This document shows positions 35,696-45,537 of a stretch of DNA of 45,537 bases, piece after piece. The notes under the pieces are model-generated. The model ran no database searches and had not been told where the DNA came from. It saw only the letters and a list, made by a program, of their open reading frames with translations. The stretch is from an uncultured cyanobacterium. GTDB lineage: Bacteria > Cyanobacteriota > Cyanobacteriia > PCC-6307 > Cyanobiaceae. Where the stretch lies: the NCBI GenBank assembly GCA_903935205.1, contig CAIZQU010000055.1:1-45537 (forward strand), given 5' to 3'. Each line of letters opens with the position of its first letter. Positions within the stretch are counted from its first letter, which is position 1. Both the position numbers and the translations under genes were made by a program.

Positions 35696-37408
35696 TCAGA
35701 AGCGGAAGGTGGTCTGCACCAGGCCGCCGAGGGCGTTGTTGGTCTGGCCGTTGCCGGTGTACTGGCCGTTGGGGCGGCTCAAGTAGAACATGGCCGGCGT
35801 GATGCTGATGTTGTCGCTCACCTTGAAGCGATACCAGAGCTCCATGGCGTAGTTGCCATCGTTGGGGCCGTCAGGTGAATCCTGGCCGGAGATCCTGTCG
35901 TTGGTCAGGCCGGTGGCAAAGCTGGGCTGGCCGAGGGCGAAACCGAGAGCGTTGCCCTTGGCGAAGACATCACCCCACTGCAGGCCCAGTTGCCAGGACT
36001 GGATGTCGGTGATGTTGCGGCTGTTGCCGTAGGCGGGGAAGGTGGTGGAGGCGGCGCCGGAGGCGTTGGTGTTGTTGTAGTCAGCGCGGGAGATGCTGCT
36101 GATGCCCCAGCCGAGGCTGAGCGAAGGCAGCAGACCGGATTGGAGCGGCTGCCAGCCGGCGCCGAGGGCGAAATTGTTGCTGTAGGAGTTGCCGTCCCAG
36201 GCGGAGGGGGTACCGGGCGTGCCGTAGCCATCACAGGCGAGAGATTGGACGGCGAACTGGGTGCCGCGACGCGCCATATTCTGGCCGCACTGGCCATAGC
36301 GCCAGGCCGCGGTAAGGGAGAACTGAGGACCGGCAAAACCGATCTGGGTCAGCAGACTACCGGCGCTATTGCTGTTGAAAAGACCGCCAGAAGTGGTGTC
36401 GCTGGTGTCACCCTTGGGGCTGACATAGTTGGCGGAAGCGGCAAAAAAGGGCTGACCTTTCTTGACGTTTTGCTTCCAGATCAGGCCGGCGGCACTACCT
36501 GTGGCCTTGTTATAGGTAGCGGGCGCACCAGCCAGGGTGAAGACATCGAGCAGATCAGCGCGATAGAAGGAAGGTTGGATCGCCAGCATCTCGGTGTTAC
36601 GGGCGATCGGACCGACCACGGCGGTGAAGGTCTTACCGACGGGGAAGCGATAGTAGAGACGGTCGACGTTGACGACATTCGGACCGCCGGTGGGCGAGAA
36701 TGCCTTGTCGAGGGCGAGGAGATTATAGGGATTACCGCCGAAAGCGTTGTTATTAAAGTTGCCGCTGCGCAGGCGGGTGAAGAGCAGATCCTTGCCGGTG
36801 AAACTGGTGTTCAGCGCCAGACGCAGATCGTAGTTAAAGGTCAGTGCACCCCACTTCTCATTGTTGGTCTCGGCATATTTAGCCGCGTTCGAACCAGCGC
36901 CGTTGGCTGTGCTGGGGCTGTTCTGGCTGCCGCCAAAATCAACCGCGCCGAGCATGAAGGAAGCTTCGCCCTGCAGCTTGGTCGTGGTCGAGAACTGGTT
37001 GGCTTCCAGCTCTCCGACGCGGGCCTCGAGGCCATCGACGCGGCCGCGCAGCACCGCCAGCTCATTCTGAAACTCCTTGAGCAGCCGCTTCAGTTCGTCG
37101 GTGCTTTCGGTGACGCGATCCAGGCAGGCGTTGAGCAGGGCTGCCGCTTCGTAGCGGGTCATCGCCTGGCCACCCTTATAGGTGCCGCTGGGATAACCGG
37201 CCACGCAGCCATAGGTGTCAACCAGGTTGGAGAGGGCCTGATAGGCCCAGTCCGTGGGCTTGACGTCGGAAAGCTGGGAGACGCTGGTGACCTGGTCATC
37301 GCTGACCGGGGCATAGCGGTTGAGATCGGATTGACCGGCGAAAGCGGCCAGGGGAGCGGCCGTTGTGGCGGCCAGTGATGCGATCAGCAGACGCTGGAAG
37401 GGTTGCAT
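35696..37408 (-). CDS. SLH-OprB 'iron uptake porin' (porin 1)
   Basis: A 570-residue outer-membrane porin of the cyanobacterial SomA/OprB type. It has a signal peptide (MQPFQRLLIASLAATTAAPLAAFA), an SLH domain that binds peptidoglycan-linked polysaccharide (VTSVSQLSDVKPTDWAYQAL ... MTRYEAAALLNACLDRV, residues about 38-100), a coiled coil (ELKRLLKEFQNELAVLRGRVDGLEARVGELEAN), and the OprB-like barrel ending with the aromatic T-F-R-F tail required for outer-membrane insertion. ATG 37408 is preceded by GAGGAA at 37414-37419. It is a paralogue of the gene just upstream, with strong identity in the SLH and coiled-coil parts and divergence in the barrel. Relatives conduct inorganic ions, including iron. 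Confidence 0.93.
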   Translation of the reverse strand: MQPFQRLLIASLAATTAAPLAAFAGQSDLNRYAPVSDDQVTSVSQLSDVKPTDWAYQALSNLVDTYGCVAGYPSGTYKGGQAMTRYEAAALLNACLDRVTESTDELKRLLKEFQNELAVLRGRVDGLEARVGELEANQFSTTTKLQGEASFMLGAVDFGGSQNSPSTANGAGSNAAKYAETNNEKWGALTFNYDLRLALNTSFTGKDLLFTRLRSGNFNNNAFGGNPYNLLALDKAFSPTGGPNVVNVDRLYYRFPVGKTFTAVVGPIARNTEMLAIQPSFYRADLLDVFTLAGAPATYNKATGSAAGLIWKQNVKKGQPFFAASANYVSPKGDTSDTTSGGLFNSNSAGSLLTQIGFAGPQFSLTAAWRYGQCGQNMARRGTQFAVQSLACDGYGTPGTPSAWDGNSYSNNFALGAGWQPLQSGLLPSLSLGWGISSISRADYNNTNASGAASTTFPAYGNSRNITDIQSWQLGLQWGDVFAKGNALGFALGQPSFATGLTNDRISGQDSPDGPNDGNYAMELWYRFKVSDNISITPAMFYLSRPNGQYTGNGQTNNALGGLVQTTFRF

Positions 37409-37564
37409 GAATTCCTCACACCAAAAGAGGACTTCCGTACAGGAAGCATTCCAATGATACCGATCGCAATGCCAGCGAGAACAGGGCCAAGGCACAGGTC
37501 CTGGTATCGGCGAGCACAACATCGCTCGGCGAACAGCGCGGCTGTGCCGTGGGAGATTTCCGAT

Positions 37565-37594
37565 AAAAAAAGCCCGACCGCAATGCGGCCGAGC
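37565..37594 (-). terminator. rho-independent terminator of porin 2
   Basis: On the minus strand a 10-bp stem (GCTCGGCCGC / GCGGTCGGGC, with two G-U pairs) and an ATT loop occupies 37594-37572, followed by seven T (37571-37565). It is 43 nt after the porin 2 stop and ends that transcript before the porin 1 gene, so the two porins have separate promoters. Confidence 0.92.
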
Positions 37595-37636
37595 TTTGAT
37601 CAAAGAAGGGAAACGGTCAGACTGGGACTGCCGAAA

Positions 37637-39229
37637 TCAGAAGCGGAAAGTGGTTTTGACGAGGCCGCCGAGGGCATCGAAATCACCATTGCCTTTCTGC
37701 AGCGAGCCAAGGGGGGCGCTGAGATAGTAAATGGCGGGAGTCACACTGATGTTGTCGGTGACTTGCAGCTTGTACCAACCTTCCCAGGCATAGTTGCCAT
37801 CGTTGGAGCCGGAGCTGGTCATGAAGGTGGGCTGACCAACGGCGAAGCCAAGGGTGTTGCCCTTGAACAGGACATCGCCCCACTGCAAGCCAAGGTACCA
37901 GGATTGGCTTTCATCCAGACCGGCGGGAGCACCGACGTAGGTGTTGATGCCCCAGCCTGCGCTGATCGAAGGGAACCAGCTGGAAGCCAGCGGCGAGAAA
38001 TAACCGCTGAGGCCGAAGGAATTGACGTTGTCGGAAAGGCCGAAAGCTTCAACGGCTTCGGGGGTACCGTTACCGCCGTAAAGGCCAGCATAAGGGCCGG
38101 TGAAGCCCCCGTTCGAGGTGTAGGTGTAGGCAGCGGCAATACCATAATTGGCACCACCGTAGGCGAGCTGAACGGTGCCGGTTTCGTTCGAACCACTGGT
38201 GGCAATGCCGCCATTTTCAGGGTTGGAACTATCGCCGTTGGCGCTCACATAGTTGGCGCTCAGGCTGAGGCCACCAGCTTTCCACCACAGACCGCCACCA
38301 GCACCGAGGTTGAGGCTGTAGGTGCCAGGGGCACCGGCGTAGGTGAAGGTGTCGAGGATGGTGTCAGCCGGATAGGCCGAGGGCCACATCGCCAGCATGT
38401 CGTCCTGACGGACGCGGGGACCGAAGGTGGCGGTGAAACCGCTGCCGATCGGGAACTGATAGAAGAGGCGGTTGATCTCGACGACATTGTTGCCAGCGCC
38501 GGATTCAAAGGCGGTCTCCATGCCGAGAAGGCCGACCGGAGGATTGCCGAACCAGGCGCTGCCTTCAAAGTTGCCGGAACGCAGGCGTGTGCGCAGCAGG
38601 TCCTTGCCGGTGAAGCTGGTGTCGAGGTCGAGGCGCAGGTCGTAGTTGAACGACAGGGCACCGATCTGTTGCTTGGCGTAGTCGGCGTACTTGCCACCCA
38701 CGGGCGCGCCGCTGTATGCGTTCAGATCGTCTGTGGTGCGCAGATCACCACCGAAGCTGTTGGCACCGATCACAAAGGCGGCGTAGCCCTTCAGCTTGGT
38801 GGTGGTGGAGAACTGATTCGCCTCCAGTTCGCCCACACGGGCCTCAAGGCCATCGACGCGGCCGCGCAGCACGGCGAGCTCCTTTTGGAACTCCTTCATC
38901 AGCCGCTTCAGCTCGTCGGTGGTCTCGGTGACGCGATCGAGGCAGGCGTTGAGCAGGGCAGCCGCCTCATAGCGGGTCATCGCCTGGCCGCCCTTGAAGG
39001 TGCCACTGGGATAGCCGGCGACGCAGCCATAGCGATCAACCAGGTTGGAGAGGGCCTGATAGGCCCAGTCGGTGGGGCGAACGTCGGAGAACTGGGAGAT
39101 GCTGGTGACCTGGTCCTGGCTGGCGTAAGCATCAACGCCGGAAAGGTTGAGGTCGGAGGCACTGGCCGCCACCGGAGCCAACAGGCCCAGGGCAGCCGGA
39201 GCCAGCAGCAGTTGCTGGAAGAGTTTCAT
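37637..39229 (-). CDS. SLH-OprB 'iron uptake porin' (porin 2)
   Basis: A 530-residue paralogue of porin 1 with the same layout: signal peptide (MKLFQQLLLAPAALGLLAPVAASA), SLH domain (VTSISQFSDVRPTDWAYQAL ... FKGGQAMTRYEAAAL), a coiled coil almost identical to that of porin 1 (VLRGRVDGLEARVGELEANQ), an OprB barrel and a final T-F-R-F. It is 40 residues shorter in the barrel. ATG 39227-39229 is preceded by GAGG (39236-39239). A perfect 7-bp palindrome lies 24-43 bp ahead of the start. Tandem pairs of such porins are common in picocyanobacteria; differing barrels suggest different selectivity or regulation. Confidence 0.93.
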   Translation of the reverse strand: MKLFQQLLLAPAALGLLAPVAASASDLNLSGVDAYASQDQVTSISQFSDVRPTDWAYQALSNLVDRYGCVAGYPSGTFKGGQAMTRYEAAALLNACLDRVTETTDELKRLMKEFQKELAVLRGRVDGLEARVGELEANQFSTTTKLKGYAAFVIGANSFGGDLRTTDDLNAYSGAPVGGKYADYAKQQIGALSFNYDLRLDLDTSFTGKDLLRTRLRSGNFEGSAWFGNPPVGLLGMETAFESGAGNNVVEINRLFYQFPIGSGFTATFGPRVRQDDMLAMWPSAYPADTILDTFTYAGAPGTYSLNLGAGGGLWWKAGGLSLSANYVSANGDSSNPENGGIATSGSNETGTVQLAYGGANYGIAAAYTYTSNGGFTGPYAGLYGGNGTPEAVEAFGLSDNVNSFGLSGYFSPLASSWFPSISAGWGINTYVGAPAGLDESQSWYLGLQWGDVLFKGNTLGFAVGQPTFMTSSGSNDGNYAWEGWYKLQVTDNISVTPAIYYLSAPLGSLQKGNGDFDALGGLVKTTFRF

Positions 39230-39252
39230 GAAGTCCTCACACGGAAAGGGCG

Positions 39253-39272
39253 CAATGCGCCACACCGCATTG
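39253..39272 (-). promoter_or_regulatory. palindrome in the 5' region of porin 2
   Basis: CAATGCG and CGCATTG form a perfect 7-bp inverted repeat with a 6-nt spacer, 24-43 bp ahead of the porin 2 start codon. It could be a regulator site or a 5' untranslated hairpin close to the ribosome-binding site. A single copy of the inner 8-mer GCATTGCG also lies about 57-64 bp ahead of porin 1. Confidence 0.35.
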
Positions 39273-39636
39273 TGTAGCCAGTGATCGCCAGTACATCCGG
39301 GGGTGTGACAGAAGACCCAACGGCCTCCAGCATGGGGAGACCAACGGATTCCGCCCGGCCGCGGCCCCCCATCTGAACTCCCATTCACCCCTGACTCCTG
39401 GCCCAGCCAACGGGGTCACCAGACCGGCTGCCAACGGGCCTGGCAACGCCGCCACTCCCACCACCGCACCCACCGCCGGGCCAGGCACGGGAGCATCCCG
39501 GCCCTGGCCCGGTCCCGACCGCTGGTGGCTGGCCCTCGGGGGTCTCTGGCTTCTGGCCACGGCCGCGGACCGCCTCTGGCTGCGCCTGGATCAGCGGCTG
39601 CCGGCCTGGGATCAGGCCGACTATCTCAACAGCGCC
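39273..39636. other. 5' region of the first GT39 gene; coding continues upstream of the ATG
   Basis: About 360 bp separate the porin 2 upstream region from the first usable ATG of the glycosyltransferase gene. The last 130-150 bp are clearly coding in the frame of that gene: from about 39490 it reads PWPGPDRWWLALGGLWLLA, then D-R-L-W-L-R-L-D, then W-D-Q-A-D-Y-L-N-S-A, which is the first membrane helix and the conserved Asp loop of the family. In this frame there is no ATG, GTG or TTG between the stop at 39229-39231 and 39637. The earlier part is Pro/Asn/Thr-rich. See the finding on the missing start. Confidence 0.6.
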
Positions 39637-41667
39637 ATGGACCACGGCCGGGCCCTGGGCCTGCTCCCCGGGGGTGGCTGGCAGGGGTTCGACCATCTGC
39701 TCGACCTCTCCCCGAAGATCCCGCCCCTGGCCTCGCTCGTCAACGGCACGGTGATGGCCCTGGCCGGTGACAGCCCAGACGAGGCGAGCTGGGCCCTGGC
39801 CCTCTGGCATGGCCTGCTGCTGCTGGTGGTGGCCTGCTGGGGAAGGGATCTACTGGGGCGTCGCTTCGGGCTGCTCGCCGCCGCCCTGCTCACCCTGGTG
39901 CCCGCCCTGGCCGAGCAACGGCTCGACTACACCCTTGACCTGGCCCTCGCCGCCACCACCACCCTGGCCCTCTGGCGGCTCGGCCGCTGGTCGGCCCCCG
40001 CACGCCTGGGCGGGGGGCGCTGGGGCGAAGGCCTGATGGCCGCCGCCGCCATCGGCGCAGCCCTGCTGGTCAAGCAAAGCGCCCTGCTGATGCTGGCGCT
40101 TCCCTGCCTCTGGGCCGTGCTGCGCAGCCTCGGTCGGCCGCGACGGCTGGCCCAGGTGGCCCTCGGCCTGGCCCTGGTGCTGGGGATGCTGTTGCCCTGG
40201 CTCCACCACAACTGGATCACCACCCTGAGCGGCACCAACCGGGCGGTGCTGGTCTCGGCGGCGCGAGAGGGCGATCCGGCGGTGTTCAGCTTCGCCTCCC
40301 TCACCTATTACCTGCGCTTGCTTCCCCAGCAGCTCGGAGCTGTGCTGGTGCTGCCCGCCCTGGCGGCGGGGAGCCTGGCGGCCTGGCACCAGCGCAGCCG
40401 GCTGGCCGAGCTCTGGCGGGACCCCCTGCGCCGCCTGCCCCCCGGCTGGACCTGGCTGATCGGCTGCACCGTGGCGGGCTGGCTCTGCACCACCTTGAGC
40501 CCCAATAAGGACGGTCGTTACATCGCCCCCCTGCTGCCCCTGCTTGCCCTGCTGCTGGCGCGGGGCTGGTGGCAGGCGGGCCTGGAGCTTCGCGCCAGGC
40601 TGGGGTGGGCCTGGCCAACGGGGCTGCTGGCGGCGGGCCTGCTCAGCGCTGCCGCCGCCCTTGCCCAGGCCAGGGATACGGCCCTGCAACGGCAGCCAGG
40701 CTCCCCCGCACCCGCCGCCATGGCTGAACTGCGGCGGCGGGTGGGCAACCAGCCGCTGACCCTGATCAACCTGCCGGATGGGCCTGAGCTCAACGAGCAC
40801 ACCCTGACCACCTATGGCCGCCTCAACGGCGGCCAGATCCTGGCCCGGCGTCTCGGCAAACGGCCCGAAGATCATCCGCTGGTGCTGGAGCGCAGCAGCT
40901 GGGTGCTGTTGGCCAGCGGCGGCGACATGGGCAGCCGCCACCGCAACACGCGGATCCTCAGCGAGCGGCTGCGCGGCGATGGCCGCTTCCAGCGGCTGGC
41001 CCACTGGCCCTGGAGCAAGGGGCGGCAGGTGGAGCTCTGGCAACGGCGGCCCGGAAGCTCAGCCGTTCCGTTCGATGCCGACTTCATCCGCCTGGCGCGG
41101 GGCATGGAACAGGGGCCGGCTGGTCTGAGCCGGTTGTTCGAACGGATCGGCCCCGAACACCAGCTGGATGGGCACTTTCTCTATCAGGGGCGGGTGCAAC
41201 GCTGGGCCCGGGAGCGCCTCAGCCGCAACCCCGCCGATCCCGACGCCCTCTGGAGCCTGGCCCTGATCGACACCCTCCGGAACCGTCCCCAGGGGGCCCA
41301 GGGCTGGTACAAAAAGCTTCAGGCGCTTCAGCCAGGCGCCCCATGGCCGGCCATCTATCGCACGGTGGTGCTGCTGGCCGACTGGCGCCCCGGCTCCGCC
41401 GCCAATGTGAGCTACGAGAGCACCGATGCCGTGGGGCACCACCCCGTGATGCGGGCCCTGCGCAATCTGAGCCGCGGCCTGGTCGGCCATCCCCTCTCCC
41501 TGGAGGCCCTTCGGGTGAGTGTGCCTGCGGCCATCCAATCGGTCCGCTCGGATCTGGAAAGCGTGAAGCCAGAGCCCGCGCCCCAGATCGCGCCCCCAAG
41601 CCCGGCGGCGATGCCTGCGCAGAACCAGGCCCCGAGCCGCCGCCAGGCCGGGAGCGCTCAACCCTGA
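39637..41667 (+). CDS. GT39 (ArnT/PMT-like) glycosyltransferase with TPR-like tail
   Basis: A large membrane glycosyltransferase of the GT39/PMT superfamily, which transfers sugars from a lipid-phosphate donor on the outer face of the inner membrane. From ATG 39637 it has 676 residues with about ten membrane helices (residues 40-370), including EQRLDYTLDLALAATTTLAL (second conserved acidic loop), LLVKQSALLMLALP and SPNKDGRYIAPLLPLLALL. The true N-terminus lies upstream, since the first helix and the conserved WDQADY loop are encoded ahead of this ATG. Residues about 440-676 are soluble and include a TPR-like pair (RNPADPDALWSLALIDTLRNRPQGAQGWYKKLQALQPGAPW). A second GT39 gene follows 0.77 kb downstream. 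Confidence 0.82.
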   Translation: MDHGRALGLLPGGGWQGFDHLLDLSPKIPPLASLVNGTVMALAGDSPDEASWALALWHGLLLLVVACWGRDLLGRRFGLLAAALLTLVPALAEQRLDYTLDLALAATTTLALWRLGRWSAPARLGGGRWGEGLMAAAAIGAALLVKQSALLMLALPCLWAVLRSLGRPRRLAQVALGLALVLGMLLPWLHHNWITTLSGTNRAVLVSAAREGDPAVFSFASLTYYLRLLPQQLGAVLVLPALAAGSLAAWHQRSRLAELWRDPLRRLPPGWTWLIGCTVAGWLCTTLSPNKDGRYIAPLLPLLALLLARGWWQAGLELRARLGWAWPTGLLAAGLLSAAAALAQARDTALQRQPGSPAPAAMAELRRRVGNQPLTLINLPDGPELNEHTLTTYGRLNGGQILARRLGKRPEDHPLVLERSSWVLLASGGDMGSRHRNTRILSERLRGDGRFQRLAHWPWSKGRQVELWQRRPGSSAVPFDADFIRLARGMEQGPAGLSRLFERIGPEHQLDGHFLYQGRVQRWARERLSRNPADPDALWSLALIDTLRNRPQGAQGWYKKLQALQPGAPWPAIYRTVVLLADWRPGSAANVSYESTDAVGHHPVMRALRNLSRGLVGHPLSLEALRVSVPAAIQSVRSDLESVKPEPAPQIAPPSPAAMPAQNQAPSRRQAGSAQP

Positions 41668-41688
41668 AAATCCCCTGAAAATCCCCTC

Positions 41689-41728
41689 AAAAACGATGCC
41701 CCCGGCAAGCACAGGGCTGACCGGGGGC
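41689..41728 (-). terminator. rho-independent terminator downstream of the 17-codon ORF
   Basis: On the minus strand GCCCCCGG (41728-41721) pairs with CCGGGGGC (41705-41698), a perfect 8-bp stem; the 15-nt loop can form an inner AGC/GCT pair. A short ATCG spacer leads to five T (41693-41689). It sits 53 nt after the stop of the 17-codon ORF and faces away from the plus-strand GT39 gene, so it ends a minus-strand transcript. On the plus strand the same stem lacks a T-run. Confidence 0.75.
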
Positions 41729-41780
41729 TCTCGCCGGGTCCACGCTGTCGCGGAACCACATGATCGAAACAGGCGCCGAC

Positions 41781-41834
41781 TCAGGCGGCGTTCTCCGCGA
41801 TCCGCAGACCCTGGATGGATGGACTGGATTGCAT
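41781..41834 (-). CDS. 17-residue peptide ORF with strong ribosome-binding site
   Basis: ATG 41832-41834 to TGA 41781-41783 encodes 17 residues: M-Q-S-S-P-S-I-Q-G-L-R-I-A-E-N-A-A. It is not recognisable as any known peptide. What makes it credible is the context: AAGGAGG at 41843-41849, a full match to the anti-Shine-Dalgarno sequence, lies 8 nt ahead of the ATG, far better than most genes in this window, and a terminator follows 53 nt after the stop. The result is a compact minus-strand unit of roughly 160 nt plus its leader. It may be a real small protein, the peptide of a dual-function small RNA, or a leader peptide; a second short frame of 24 codons (starting near 41762) overlaps the terminator and is less likely. 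Confidence 0.45.
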   Translation of the reverse strand: MQSSPSIQGLRIAENAA

Positions 41835-41842
41835 GGACACCT

Positions 41843-41849
41843 CCTCCTT
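41843..41849 (-). promoter_or_regulatory. consensus ribosome-binding site AAGGAGG
   Basis: AAGGAGG followed by AGGT, 8 nt and 4 nt ahead of the ATG at 41834 respectively. Most genes in this window have weak or no Shine-Dalgarno, so this site stands out and decides the start of the 17-codon ORF. Confidence 0.6.
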
Positions 41850-41959
41850 GTTGGATGATGCCAGCCGGTGTCGCCTTCGAAACCAGCCCCCGGGGGAACT
41901 GCTTTCACGCCACTGCTGACGGAACCGACCCAGCCTAACCAGGTCGACAAGGACGACGG

Positions 41960-42433: not shown

Positions 42434-44212
42434 ATGCGATTCACCCAGGCGGATCACCCTGCTCGTCCAGTGCTGAGCGCCCCGCTGAAGCGGCGCCCCT
42501 GGCGTGGCCTGCTGCTGATCTGGCTGGCAGCCCTGCTCCTCGATCTCTGGGGTATCCAGCAGGGACCCCTGCGGGACTGGGACGAATCCCTGGTGGCGCG
42601 CATCGCCCTGGAGCTCAGTGAAAAGTCCTGGCCCGATCTGCTCCTGCCGACGCTCTGGGGGGAGCCGTACGTCAACAAACCCCCTGGCGTTCACTGGCTG
42701 ATCGCCGGGCTGATCCACCTCTGGCGCGCTGGGGCAGAAGCCGATGCCCTGCCGCCGGAATGGCTGCTGCGGCTGGCACCGGCCCTGGGCTCCAGCCTGC
42801 TCAGCCCCCTGTTGGGCCTGGTGCAGTGGCAACTGCGGCCCGGTCGCCGCGCCGATGCCCTCTGGACCGCCGCCATCGCCCTCACCCTGCTTCCCCTGGC
42901 CCGCCATGCCCATCTGGTGATGCTCGATGGCCTGCAGCTCACGGCGATCGCCAGCCTCTGGCTGGGGTTGCTGCTGGCCAGGCCCGGGCGGCGCTGGGCC
43001 CTGGCGGGGGGACTGCTGGCGGGCCTGGCGACCTCGGCCCTGCTGCTTCTGAAAGCACCCGTGGCCCCAGCGGTGCTGCTGGGAAGCCTGGCCCTGCGCT
43101 GCACCGATGGCGATCTGCCACGCCGCGCCTGGCGTTGGCTGCTCTTTGGCCTGGCCCTGGGTCTGCTGCCGGGGCTGGCCTGGCACGGCTGGCATCTGGC
43201 CTGTCGCGGCGAGGACGCCCTGGTGATGTGGGGGAGACAGGGGTTGGCCCGGGTGGTCAGCGGCATCGAAAACCACAACGGCGGCCCGATCCCTCCATTG
43301 ATTCAGGTGTTGAGCGGCGGCTGGCCCTGGCTGCTGCTCTGGCCCGCCGCCATCGGTGCAGCCTGGCGTCAACGACGGGGTCGCTGGGGTCGCTGGGTCC
43401 TTGGGCTGACGACCCTGACGTCCCTGCTGGTGCTGCCCCTGCAGACCCAGCTGCCCTGGTACAGCCTGTTGCTCTGGCCACCCTTCGCCCTCGGCTGCGG
43501 TCCGCCGATGGCGGCGCTGGTCAGCGGAGCAGGGCTCGAACGGCTGCGCTGCGGAATTGGGCGGATCTGGCTGGTGATCGCACTGTTGCTGCTGACGGCC
43601 ATCCTGATCAGCCCCCTCATTCCTGGCCTGGCCCCCGTGGCAGGCATCGCGCTGCCCGGATGCCTGGGACTGCTGGCGGCCGGATTGGTGCTGGGCTTCG
43701 GCAAGCCAGGGCGGCAGCAGCGCCGCAGGGCGGCCTGGGGGCTGGTGATCGGCTGGAGTCTGACCCTGCTGGCACTGTTCAGCACGCCGCTCTGGAACTG
43801 GGAGCTGGGTGAGCAACCCTCGATCAGGCCCCTGCTGACGCTGGTGAGTCGTCCCAGCCGCAACGGTGACCTCGCGGCCGTGCCCCTGCTGGTGGAGGGT
43901 CTACGGGGACGGCCTCCCAGCCTGCAGTGGTATGCCCAGGATCCGCTCAAACCCAGGATTCAGGCCCTCAGCAAGGCCGAGAAGCTGCTGCTGGTCAGCC
44001 AAGCCACCAGCCCCGAGCAGACGAGACTGGCGCAGAAGCTTGGCCCTGATTGGATCAATCGCCATCGCTGCGCTCTGGAACGCACTGGGGAAGCGGGATG
44101 GCATCGCTGGCTCTGCCACCTCGGCCCGTCACTGACCGACGCCCGCTCCCCACTCGATCGGGAGGGAAGCACCAGAGCCAGTCACGCAGCTGGGGATTCC
44201 GATCCAGGCTGA
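42434..44212 (+). CDS. GT39 (ArnT/PMT-like) glycosyltransferase
   Basis: A 592-residue membrane glycosyltransferase of the ArnT/PMT type. The first periplasmic loop after helix 1 has the catalytic-type DWDES (GIQQGPLRDWDESLVARIA, residues about 40-60) and, further on, the ArnT hallmark P-Y-V-N-K-P-P-G with W-L-I at about residues 75-90; the second acidic loop is ARHAHLVMLDGLQL. About eleven membrane helices follow up to residue 440, then a soluble domain of about 130 residues. Predicted activity is transfer of a sugar from a polyprenyl-phosphate donor to a lipid or protein in the periplasm. The ATG is directly preceded by GGAGG with almost no spacing, so GTG 42470 is an alternative start. Confidence 0.9.
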   Translation: MRFTQADHPARPVLSAPLKRRPWRGLLLIWLAALLLDLWGIQQGPLRDWDESLVARIALELSEKSWPDLLLPTLWGEPYVNKPPGVHWLIAGLIHLWRAGAEADALPPEWLLRLAPALGSSLLSPLLGLVQWQLRPGRRADALWTAAIALTLLPLARHAHLVMLDGLQLTAIASLWLGLLLARPGRRWALAGGLLAGLATSALLLLKAPVAPAVLLGSLALRCTDGDLPRRAWRWLLFGLALGLLPGLAWHGWHLACRGEDALVMWGRQGLARVVSGIENHNGGPIPPLIQVLSGGWPWLLLWPAAIGAAWRQRRGRWGRWVLGLTTLTSLLVLPLQTQLPWYSLLLWPPFALGCGPPMAALVSGAGLERLRCGIGRIWLVIALLLLTAILISPLIPGLAPVAGIALPGCLGLLAAGLVLGFGKPGRQQRRRAAWGLVIGWSLTLLALFSTPLWNWELGEQPSIRPLLTLVSRPSRNGDLAAVPLLVEGLRGRPPSLQWYAQDPLKPRIQALSKAEKLLLVSQATSPEQTRLAQKLGPDWINRHRCALERTGEAGWHRWLCHLGPSLTDARSPLDREGSTRASHAAGDSDPG

Positions 44213-45185: not shown

Positions 45186-45537
45186 TCAGAGAGCGTTGCC
45201 GCGGGGCAGAACTTCTTCAGGGAAGACGAAGTTTTCGTGAGGCTGGTCCGCCGGTGCCATCCAGGCGCGCAGACCTTCGTTGAGCAGGATGTTCTTGGTG
45301 TAGAAGGTTTCGAACTCAGGATCCTCAGCGGCGCGGATCTCCTGCGACACGAAGTCGTAGGCGCGCAGGTTGAGGGCCAGGCCGATGATGCCGATGCTGC
45401 TGGTCCACAGACCCATCACCGGCACAAACAGCATGAAGAAGTGCAGCCAGCGCTTGTTGGAGAAGGCGATCCCGAAGATCTGGCTCCAGAAGCGGTTGGC
45501 GGTGACCATCGAGTAGGTCTCCTCTTCCTGGGTGGGC
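45186..45537 (-). CDS. psbD: photosystem II D2 protein, C-terminal part (5' end outside window)
   Basis: The last 116-117 residues of the photosystem II reaction-centre protein D2. It enters at the right edge with P-T-Q-E-E-E-T-Y-S, then [19 protein letters not shown], the last membrane helix ([22 protein letters not shown]), and ends with the D2 C-terminus [18 protein letters not shown]. Residues of the non-heme iron site would be in this helix region. The ATG-like codon at 45509 is internal Met, not a start. Only the first part of the gene, off the edge, is missing. The TTCG-loop terminator follows at 45133-45156. Confidence 0.97.

Follow-up and report, generated by a model that had tools for sequence, protein, structure and literature searches.

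The window is the whole 45,537-nt stretch of DNA that was analysed, contig CAIZQU010000055.1 of an uncultured member of the Cyanobiaceae. On its minus strand the sequence AAGGAGG (41849-41843) lies 8 nt ahead of an ATG start codon (41834-41832), which opens a reading frame (ORF) of 17 codons, MQSSPSIQGLRIAENAA, closed by a TGA stop codon (41783-41781; 41781..41834 for the ORF with its stop). A first-pass annotation made from the sequence of the window had reported this arrangement, and its coordinates are exact. It had also reported a terminator. Both an 8-bp stem in a GC-rich hairpin, GCCCCCGG/CCGGGGGC (41728-41721 with 41705-41698, minus strand), and a run of five T residues (41693-41689, minus strand) exist, but the run is not contiguous with the stem because AUCG intervenes. 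The unit was further said to lie in a gap between two GT39 genes. The gene at 39637-41667 fits a PMT/GT39-type Pfam model (PF13231), but that at 42434-44212 has no Pfam match at 1e-3. Two other genes of the locus are on the same strand as the ORF: the 3' end of psbD, encoding D2 (45186..45537, minus strand; Pfam Photo_RC, 4.6e-10), which is truncated by the end of the contig and lies upstream, about 3.3 kb from the element, and, downstream, an OprB/SLH porin gene (37637..39388, minus strand; Pfam OprB 2.8e-15 and SLH 1.1e-8). The latter is one of two tandem same-strand porin-like genes (35696-37603 and 37637-39388). Opposite-strand genes are among those that separate the element from psbD and from the porin gene.

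A -10-like box, TAGGCT (41932..41937, minus strand), lies 11 nt 5' of a block, GTCAGCAGTG, that is conserved in relatives, and suggests that the unit has its own promoter. With its 5' end placed by this box, the predicted RNA is about 238 nt long (41689..41926, minus strand). A TANNNT box was found 3-26 nt 5' of the conserved block in 60 of the 64 representative relatives in which the block was located (74 representatives in all) versus 19% of shuffled stretches. Judged from the window alone, the features of the tiny unit occur at chance frequency. AAGGAGG is found five times (6.1 expected) and AGGAGGTGNNNATG, with at most one mismatch, twice (0.98 expected). Between 38000 and 45537 there is one terminator-like site (3.1 expected from shuffles) and no sigma-70-consensus promoter-like site (0.3 expected). 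Folding of 41687-41935 gave a z score of -2.5. Conservation settles the reality of the unit, and the conservation in relatives described below removes the doubt raised by these chance-level frequencies. No Rfam family matched at the gathering threshold in the window or in eight distant loci, and a search of four loci at a relaxed threshold returned one tRNA elsewhere plus low scorers far below their gathering scores. We also rejected tmRNA as a candidate, as ARAGORN yields only a tRNA-Ser in the window and Rfam gave no tmRNA match above threshold.

Distribution and gene neighbourhood of the element

Strong DNA matches to the 241-nt stretch carrying the unit were found in 37 of the 42 genomes of the genus, the genome of the window included. 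The five remaining congeners (G005, G007, G024, G039 and G041) gave chance-level matches only. Secondary 33-bp matches in congeners were set aside; they are short and, at the five loci inspected, fall inside a coding region taken by eye for rsmH/mraW. When the element of a relative was used as query, 202 of 400 genomes of the family were matched. Small family genomes of 1.6-1.9 Mb, for example those of genus g17, had no detectable element and are possibly high-light Prochlorococcus. A pattern scan of named genomes gave 110 stretches. The 80 that were listed carry the labels Synechococcus, Cyanobium, Prochlorococcus, Vulcanococcus, Aphanothece, Aphanocapsa feldmannii, Microcystis elabens and unnamed cyanobacteria, plus one Bifidobacterium bin, and the remaining 30 include one bin labelled Gammaproteobacteria. 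The two odd labels belong to metagenome-assembled genomes (L147, labelled Bifidobacterium breve, and L210, labelled Gammaproteobacteria), in which the contigs that carry the element are probably misassigned cyanobacterial contigs. An exact-pattern search of viral contigs found no match.

We collected 229 picocyanobacterial loci, of which 224 have the element, the other five serving as controls. At each of the 224 a 17-codon frame stands behind GGAGG. Among their 144 distinct sequences the Shine-Dalgarno sequence, AAGGAGGAGGTG in the window (41838..41849, minus strand), has the form GGAGGAGGTG in 138. The start codon is ATG in 82 and GTG in 62, and the stop codon is TGA in 139, TAG in four and TAA in one. 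The base at -3 and the first base of the start codon (window 41837 and 41834) co-vary in the 144 distinct elements (T-A 71, C-G 53, C-A 10, T-G 9 and G-A 1); the two are too close together for a hairpin, and shared descent may account for the pattern. Nearly all of the listed genomes have one match. Two matches each were found in G179 and G327, and the covariance model matched G074:C1 twice, at 2018486 and 2023820; the second match is far weaker (2.4e-23) and is a possible diverged duplicate.

The element extends well beyond the family. In a phylum sample of 386 genomes, which may include non-photosynthetic lineages, the covariance model matched 72 genomes, of which 38 are outside the family (one of these a partial match). 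A sequence-only profile of the part from the Shine-Dalgarno sequence through the ORF, built from picocyanobacterial and extra-family elements, matched 152 genomes in 28 families with E values down to 5e-27; 118 of the 152 belong to 27 families other than that of the window. Those listed among the 234 genomes that lacked a match come mostly from members of the family itself with small genomes. At 69 extra-family loci (59 distinct ORFs) all had an ORF under a pattern that demanded an ATG and a Shine-Dalgarno sequence, and the motif [ACT]AGGAGGTGAT is present in 51 of the 59. These ORFs have 23 codons in 52 cases, 24 in four and 17 in three, and end in TAA (39), TAG (19) or TGA (1). Within the phylum sample the element spans 28 families or more, and its carriers include Synechococcus of marine and fresh waters, Cyanobium and some lineages of Prochlorococcus.

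The genes upstream of the element recur, with psbD on the same strand in many relatives. In 24 of the 30 top-scoring loci (L267-L296) the end of psbD is 169-545 nt upstream, and in L250 Pfam places CobB directly upstream. In 19 more divergent loci the psbD end was found in five and a CobB motif in two within 1.7 kb upstream. Some Prochlorococcus loci keep the element although the upstream sequence examined there contains no psbD end. Among the 104 distinct picocyanobacterial elements with at least 600 nt of upstream sequence, psbD is no more than 400 nt away in 20 and no more than 2 kb away in 41. Contig ends lie 300-600 nt from the element in many relatives, perhaps because duplication of psbD breaks assemblies nearby. 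Downstream, many loci outside the family have a pterin dehydratase gene and an OprB/SLH porin gene, and some other loci have genes that by eye are cysK-like or photolyase-like. Many picocyanobacterial elements are flanked by long convergent genes, some of which look glycosyltransferase-like by eye (the Pfam scan covered the genes of the window). The possible tie to envelope glycosylation suggested in the first-pass annotation finds no support here, as the recurring neighbours outside the picocyanobacteria are psbD or cobB upstream and the pterin dehydratase and OprB porin genes downstream.

Conserved fold and reading frame

For structural analysis 74 representatives were drawn from the 144 distinct elements after dropping nine that were cut short or contained N, and 62 of the 74 were aligned; the omitted elements (L031, L045, L048, L049, L122, L138, L140, L164, L185, L197, L198 and L214) are longer or more divergent. 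RNAalifold predicted one long hairpin composed of helices P1, P2 and P3, followed by a 3' hairpin, P4. The consensus partners are GGGUCUGC/GCGGACCC for P1, GCGGA/UCCGC for P2 and GCCG/CGGU for P3. In the window (all minus strand) P1 pairs GGGUCUGC (41804..41811), which runs from the last base of codon 8 to the first base of codon 11, with GUGGACCC (41736..41743); P2 pairs GCGGA of codons 13-14 (41794..41798) with UCCGC (41750..41754); and P3 pairs GCCG of codons 16-17 (41786..41789) with UGGU (41755..41758), which leaves the stop codon within the P3 loop. Thus, the long helix is formed by the second half of the ORF paired with sequence past the stop codon. P4 (41692..41735) is terminator-like and has the form GGCGA[GA]GCCCCCGG...CCGGGGGC[A]UCGUU, the lower part being GRCGA/UCGUU. 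The UCGUU that follows the GC-rich stem is in relatives the lower part of the P4 hairpin. In the 137 picocyanobacterial elements in which it was located (of 144 distinct), the run of U residues that begins with the UU of UCGUU is 2-3 long in 54 and at least 4 long in 83. In one Cyanobium group (L014, L026 and similar elements) the P4 loop has a long GC-rich extension, CCCAGG...CCTGG.

Across the 62 sequences 98.9% of 2046 cells were paired, compared with 38-51% in slid controls. Pair changes on both sides numbered 10 versus 5.4 in shuffles. P4 carries most of the covariation, with eight pairs changed on both sides. P1 and P2 vary little, and nearly all of their changes preserve pairing. The cells of P1, P2 and P3 were paired in 100%, 99.7% and 99.2% of cases, respectively. 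Pairs were broken in only three of the 62 elements (one P2 cell in L095 and two P3 cells, in L099 and L100). In L005 two bases of P1 are changed and all eight pairs are retained, and P2 has two pairs with two-sided change, in L102 and L199, which alter the peptide. In four elements (L122, L138, L152 and L182) the loop is mostly lost, TAG serves as the stop at the same codon position, and other bases rebuild P1-P3. A further helix, P0, is predicted in the 5'-UTR, where GGCGT (41907..41911) faces GCGAC (41860..41864) with four of five pairs in the window (both minus strand). All five P0 pairs are present in 48 of the 73 elements scored (of 74 representatives), and all four types of middle pair occur; the P0 strands were picked by pattern, some picks being wrong and one element giving none.

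Several other pairings were considered. Hairpin B, in which GGUUCCGC pairs with GUGGACC (window 41757-41750 with 41743-41737), was 99.5% paired in the 62 sequences and is incompatible with P1 and P2. The two-state switch that it suggested is possible but forms no part of the favoured mechanism, as folding of the four loop-contracted elements, which rebuild P1-P3, does not predict hairpin B locally (by hand, a weakened form is possible in L152). Hairpin B may be a by-product of the repeated arm sequence. Two further pairings, one between the two GCCGGC blocks and one between the two GAUC blocks, were also rejected, as by eye their one-sided changes are uncompensated.

Outside the family the P2 arms differ widely, the differences are compensated and covariation is strong (this comparison placed the 3' arm of L253 wrongly). 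Native P1-P3 duplexes had a mean energy of -23.2 kcal/mol versus -15.9 kcal/mol when arms were exchanged among genomes, the exchanged duplex being as stable as the native one in 83 of 848 swaps. Both arms were located in 51 of the 59 distinct elements, giving 30 distinct pairs, and the genomes are related, such that the swaps are not independent. The homologous P4 was also located in 51 of the 59, and its U-run is at least 4 long in 45 of these.

In the picocyanobacterial elements most third positions of codons 9-17 are nearly frozen (GGT in 144 of 144, GCG in 135 of the 135 alanine codons at position 13, and GCC in 142 of 142 at position 16). Codons 9-17 show 20 silent and 60 non-silent differences from the consensus, compared with 24 silent among 81 for random single changes, and codons 2-8 show 34 silent and 293 non-silent differences, all counted per ORF rather than per event. 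Expressed per site per 100 ORFs, variation is about 6 at unpaired sites, 1.6 at paired sites where change alters the amino acid and 0.33 at paired sites where change can be silent. By these counts, changes in the picocyanobacterial ORF track base pairing rather than the genetic code. The excess of silent over non-silent change that marks a small protein is absent in the picocyanobacteria. Conservation in relatives had been put forward as the check on the unit; the ribosome-binding site and the whole unit are indeed strongly kept, but the peptide, which lacks an excess of silent changes, fails this check in the picocyanobacteria. As the paired silent sites are frozen and there is no silent excess, selection looks to maintain the RNA fold and the presence of a frame with its translation signals, and to act hardly, if visibly at all, on the peptide sequence.

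Translation, rival explanations and known RNAs

We favour a reading of the element as a free-standing structured RNA gene of about 240 nt belonging to the Sye_sRNA1 family, with a promoter and a 3' hairpin of its own, a genuinely translated short ORF, a fold that is gated by ribosomes and a peptide that is mainly a by-product, and give this combined reading a probability of about 0.5. Its parts differ in strength. The ORF is probably translated in cells. TGA, TAG and TAA interchange at a single codon, ATG and GTG interchange at the start, and the Shine-Dalgarno sequence, start, frame and stop are all kept, such that the translation signals are under selection as in a dual-function sRNA. Ribosomes would load at the very strong Shine-Dalgarno sequence and read codons 1-8, which are not part of the long helix. 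They would then melt P1-P3, and termination would allow the helix to re-close. The RNA would in this way alternate between closed and open forms according to its translation, the open form exposing the 3' arm and the ORF arm to pairing with target mRNAs or to attack by RNases. In picocyanobacteria at least, the peptide would be chiefly a by-product. If the ORF is translated, that passage of ribosomes gates the fold is possible, at somewhat less than even odds. A broader proposal, that an RNA reported as the most abundant "non-coding" sRNA of model cyanobacteria is a translated sensor of the translational state of the cell, in which opening of the helix sets activity or stability and the peptide is free to drift or change frame, is tentative and on balance doubtful.

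The strongest rival is that the peptide of 17-23 residues is the functional product and that the RNA fold regulates its synthesis. The very strong ribosome-binding site and the retention of start, frame and stop agree with this, as does the uniformity of the ORF outside the family, where 23 codons are the rule (52 of 59 distinct) and 43 distinct 23-codon ORFs share the consensus MIESSKSMGHQVAVSRLCAGAVL. At the end of these ORFs, RLCAGAVL (codons 16-23), there are 27 silent and 35 non-silent differences, a single codon accounting for 17 of the silent changes. This slight silent excess suggests some conservation at the amino acid level and a possible role for the peptide there. In picocyanobacteria, however, silent changes are not in excess (20 of 80 versus 24 of 81 in codons 9-17, and few against many in codons 2-8). 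Moreover, the picocyanobacterial frame is, on a comparison made by hand between L247 and the picocyanobacterial consensus, shifted relative to the conserved RNA, and so the ends of the peptides are unrelated to those of other cyanobacteria. We therefore consider a functional peptide unlikely. Of the two products that the first-pass annotation had offered, a dual-function RNA is plausible, but the view that the unit chiefly makes a conserved small protein is unsupported in picocyanobacteria.

Less likely again is that the RNA acts in trans as a conventional non-coding sRNA and that its ORF is an incidental or vestigial feature. Sye_sRNA1 and its homologues were reported to be highly abundant and regulated in an account whose passages on them are silent on an ORF (PMC6091082), and frozen silent positions are what such an RNA would show. 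However, codon 18 is always a stop codon, of three kinds, the frame survives local deletion, and a near-perfect complement of the anti-Shine-Dalgarno sequence is kept. A leader or attenuator, in which the terminator controls read-through into the pterin dehydratase and porin genes, is improbable. The L248 terminator is followed after about 20 nt by the start of the pterin dehydratase gene, and a porin gene is downstream at many extra-family loci, but the downstream gene is not constant. Of 30 picocyanobacterial loci, 22 have a convergent long ORF next and five have a same-strand one, the orientation in the other three being undetermined, and an unsystematic look revealed no structure that competes with P4. 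The first-pass annotation had judged a simple leader or attenuator unlikely, and with no fixed gene 3' of this free-standing unit we agree. Finally, a chance combination of Shine-Dalgarno sequence, ATG and hairpin, which the window-alone frequencies would allow, is refuted by conservation with covariation in hundreds of genomes. The rivals thus rank with the functional peptide first, the purely non-coding RNA second and the attenuator third.

The identity of the element under the favoured reading rests on a comparison with Sye_sRNA1, reported in 2018 as an RNA of about 200 nt that exceeded every other sRNA of Synechococcus elongatus UTEX 2973 in abundance, both in control cultures and at high temperature (PMC6091082). 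In that report 53 homologues were described, mostly downstream of psbD or cobB; TU475 of Synechocystis 6803 and TU2045 of strain 6714 are homologues, and the RNA was confirmed by experiment in Anabaena 7120 and strains PCC 7942, 6714 and 6803 (PMC6091082). The present element shares the psbD/cobB position, a length of about 200 nt, its status as a free-standing gene, a conserved fold and a broad cyanobacterial range. It is downstream of psbD or cobB in many relatives and loosely so in the window, and secondary structure is conserved across cyanobacteria, judged on the present alignments rather than on the published structure. In genome G523 some 2,800 nt separate the predicted start of the element from the start codon of the second porin gene downstream, a spacing that fits the published start sites of 1,559,116 and 1,561,830, 2,714 nt apart (PMC6091082), if the porin 5'UTR is about 100 nt. 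From synteny (which is loose), size and breadth, the element is very probably the picocyanobacterial member of the Sye_sRNA1 family. Two differences stand out. Sye_sRNA1 is described as mostly downstream of psbD or cobB, whereas the element of the window is about 3.3 kb from psbD; and Sye_sRNA1 is described as an sRNA, whereas the window element keeps a 17-codon ORF in a frame unlike that of the 23-codon ORF of other cyanobacteria. In the open-licence literature, supplement aside, the passages of PMC6091082 on Sye_sRNA1 do not mention an ORF, and we found no function for this RNA in that literature.

Two other picocyanobacterial RNAs are set apart from the element by their descriptions. Yfr103, a very abundant RNA of unknown function, is 290-328 nt long with seven paralogues in CC9605 (PMC5069720), whereas the element gives one match per genome nearly everywhere. 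Yfr6 of Prochlorococcus MED4 and SS120 is an RNA of about 244 nt with a possible ORF of 33 aa, which gave a Northern signal in those two strains but not in WH 8102 or MIT 9313 (PMC1242208); it is at another locus and its ORF has another length. Its authors likened Yfr6 to RNAIII (PMC1242208).

An RNA reported to be among the most abundant of model cyanobacteria, and so far treated as an sRNA, would, by our alignments, have a reading frame under selection and a fold built on that frame. Precedents exist for such a combination. SgrS, which encodes SgrT, is a dual-function sRNA, a structured regulatory RNA with a short translated ORF. RNAIII, which encodes delta-hemolysin (PMC1242208), is likewise a structured regulatory RNA with a short translated ORF, and we claim no sequence relation to either RNA. 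The element differs from both RNAIII and SgrS in that a covarying helix takes one of its arms from the ORF codons themselves and the other from sequence past the stop codon.
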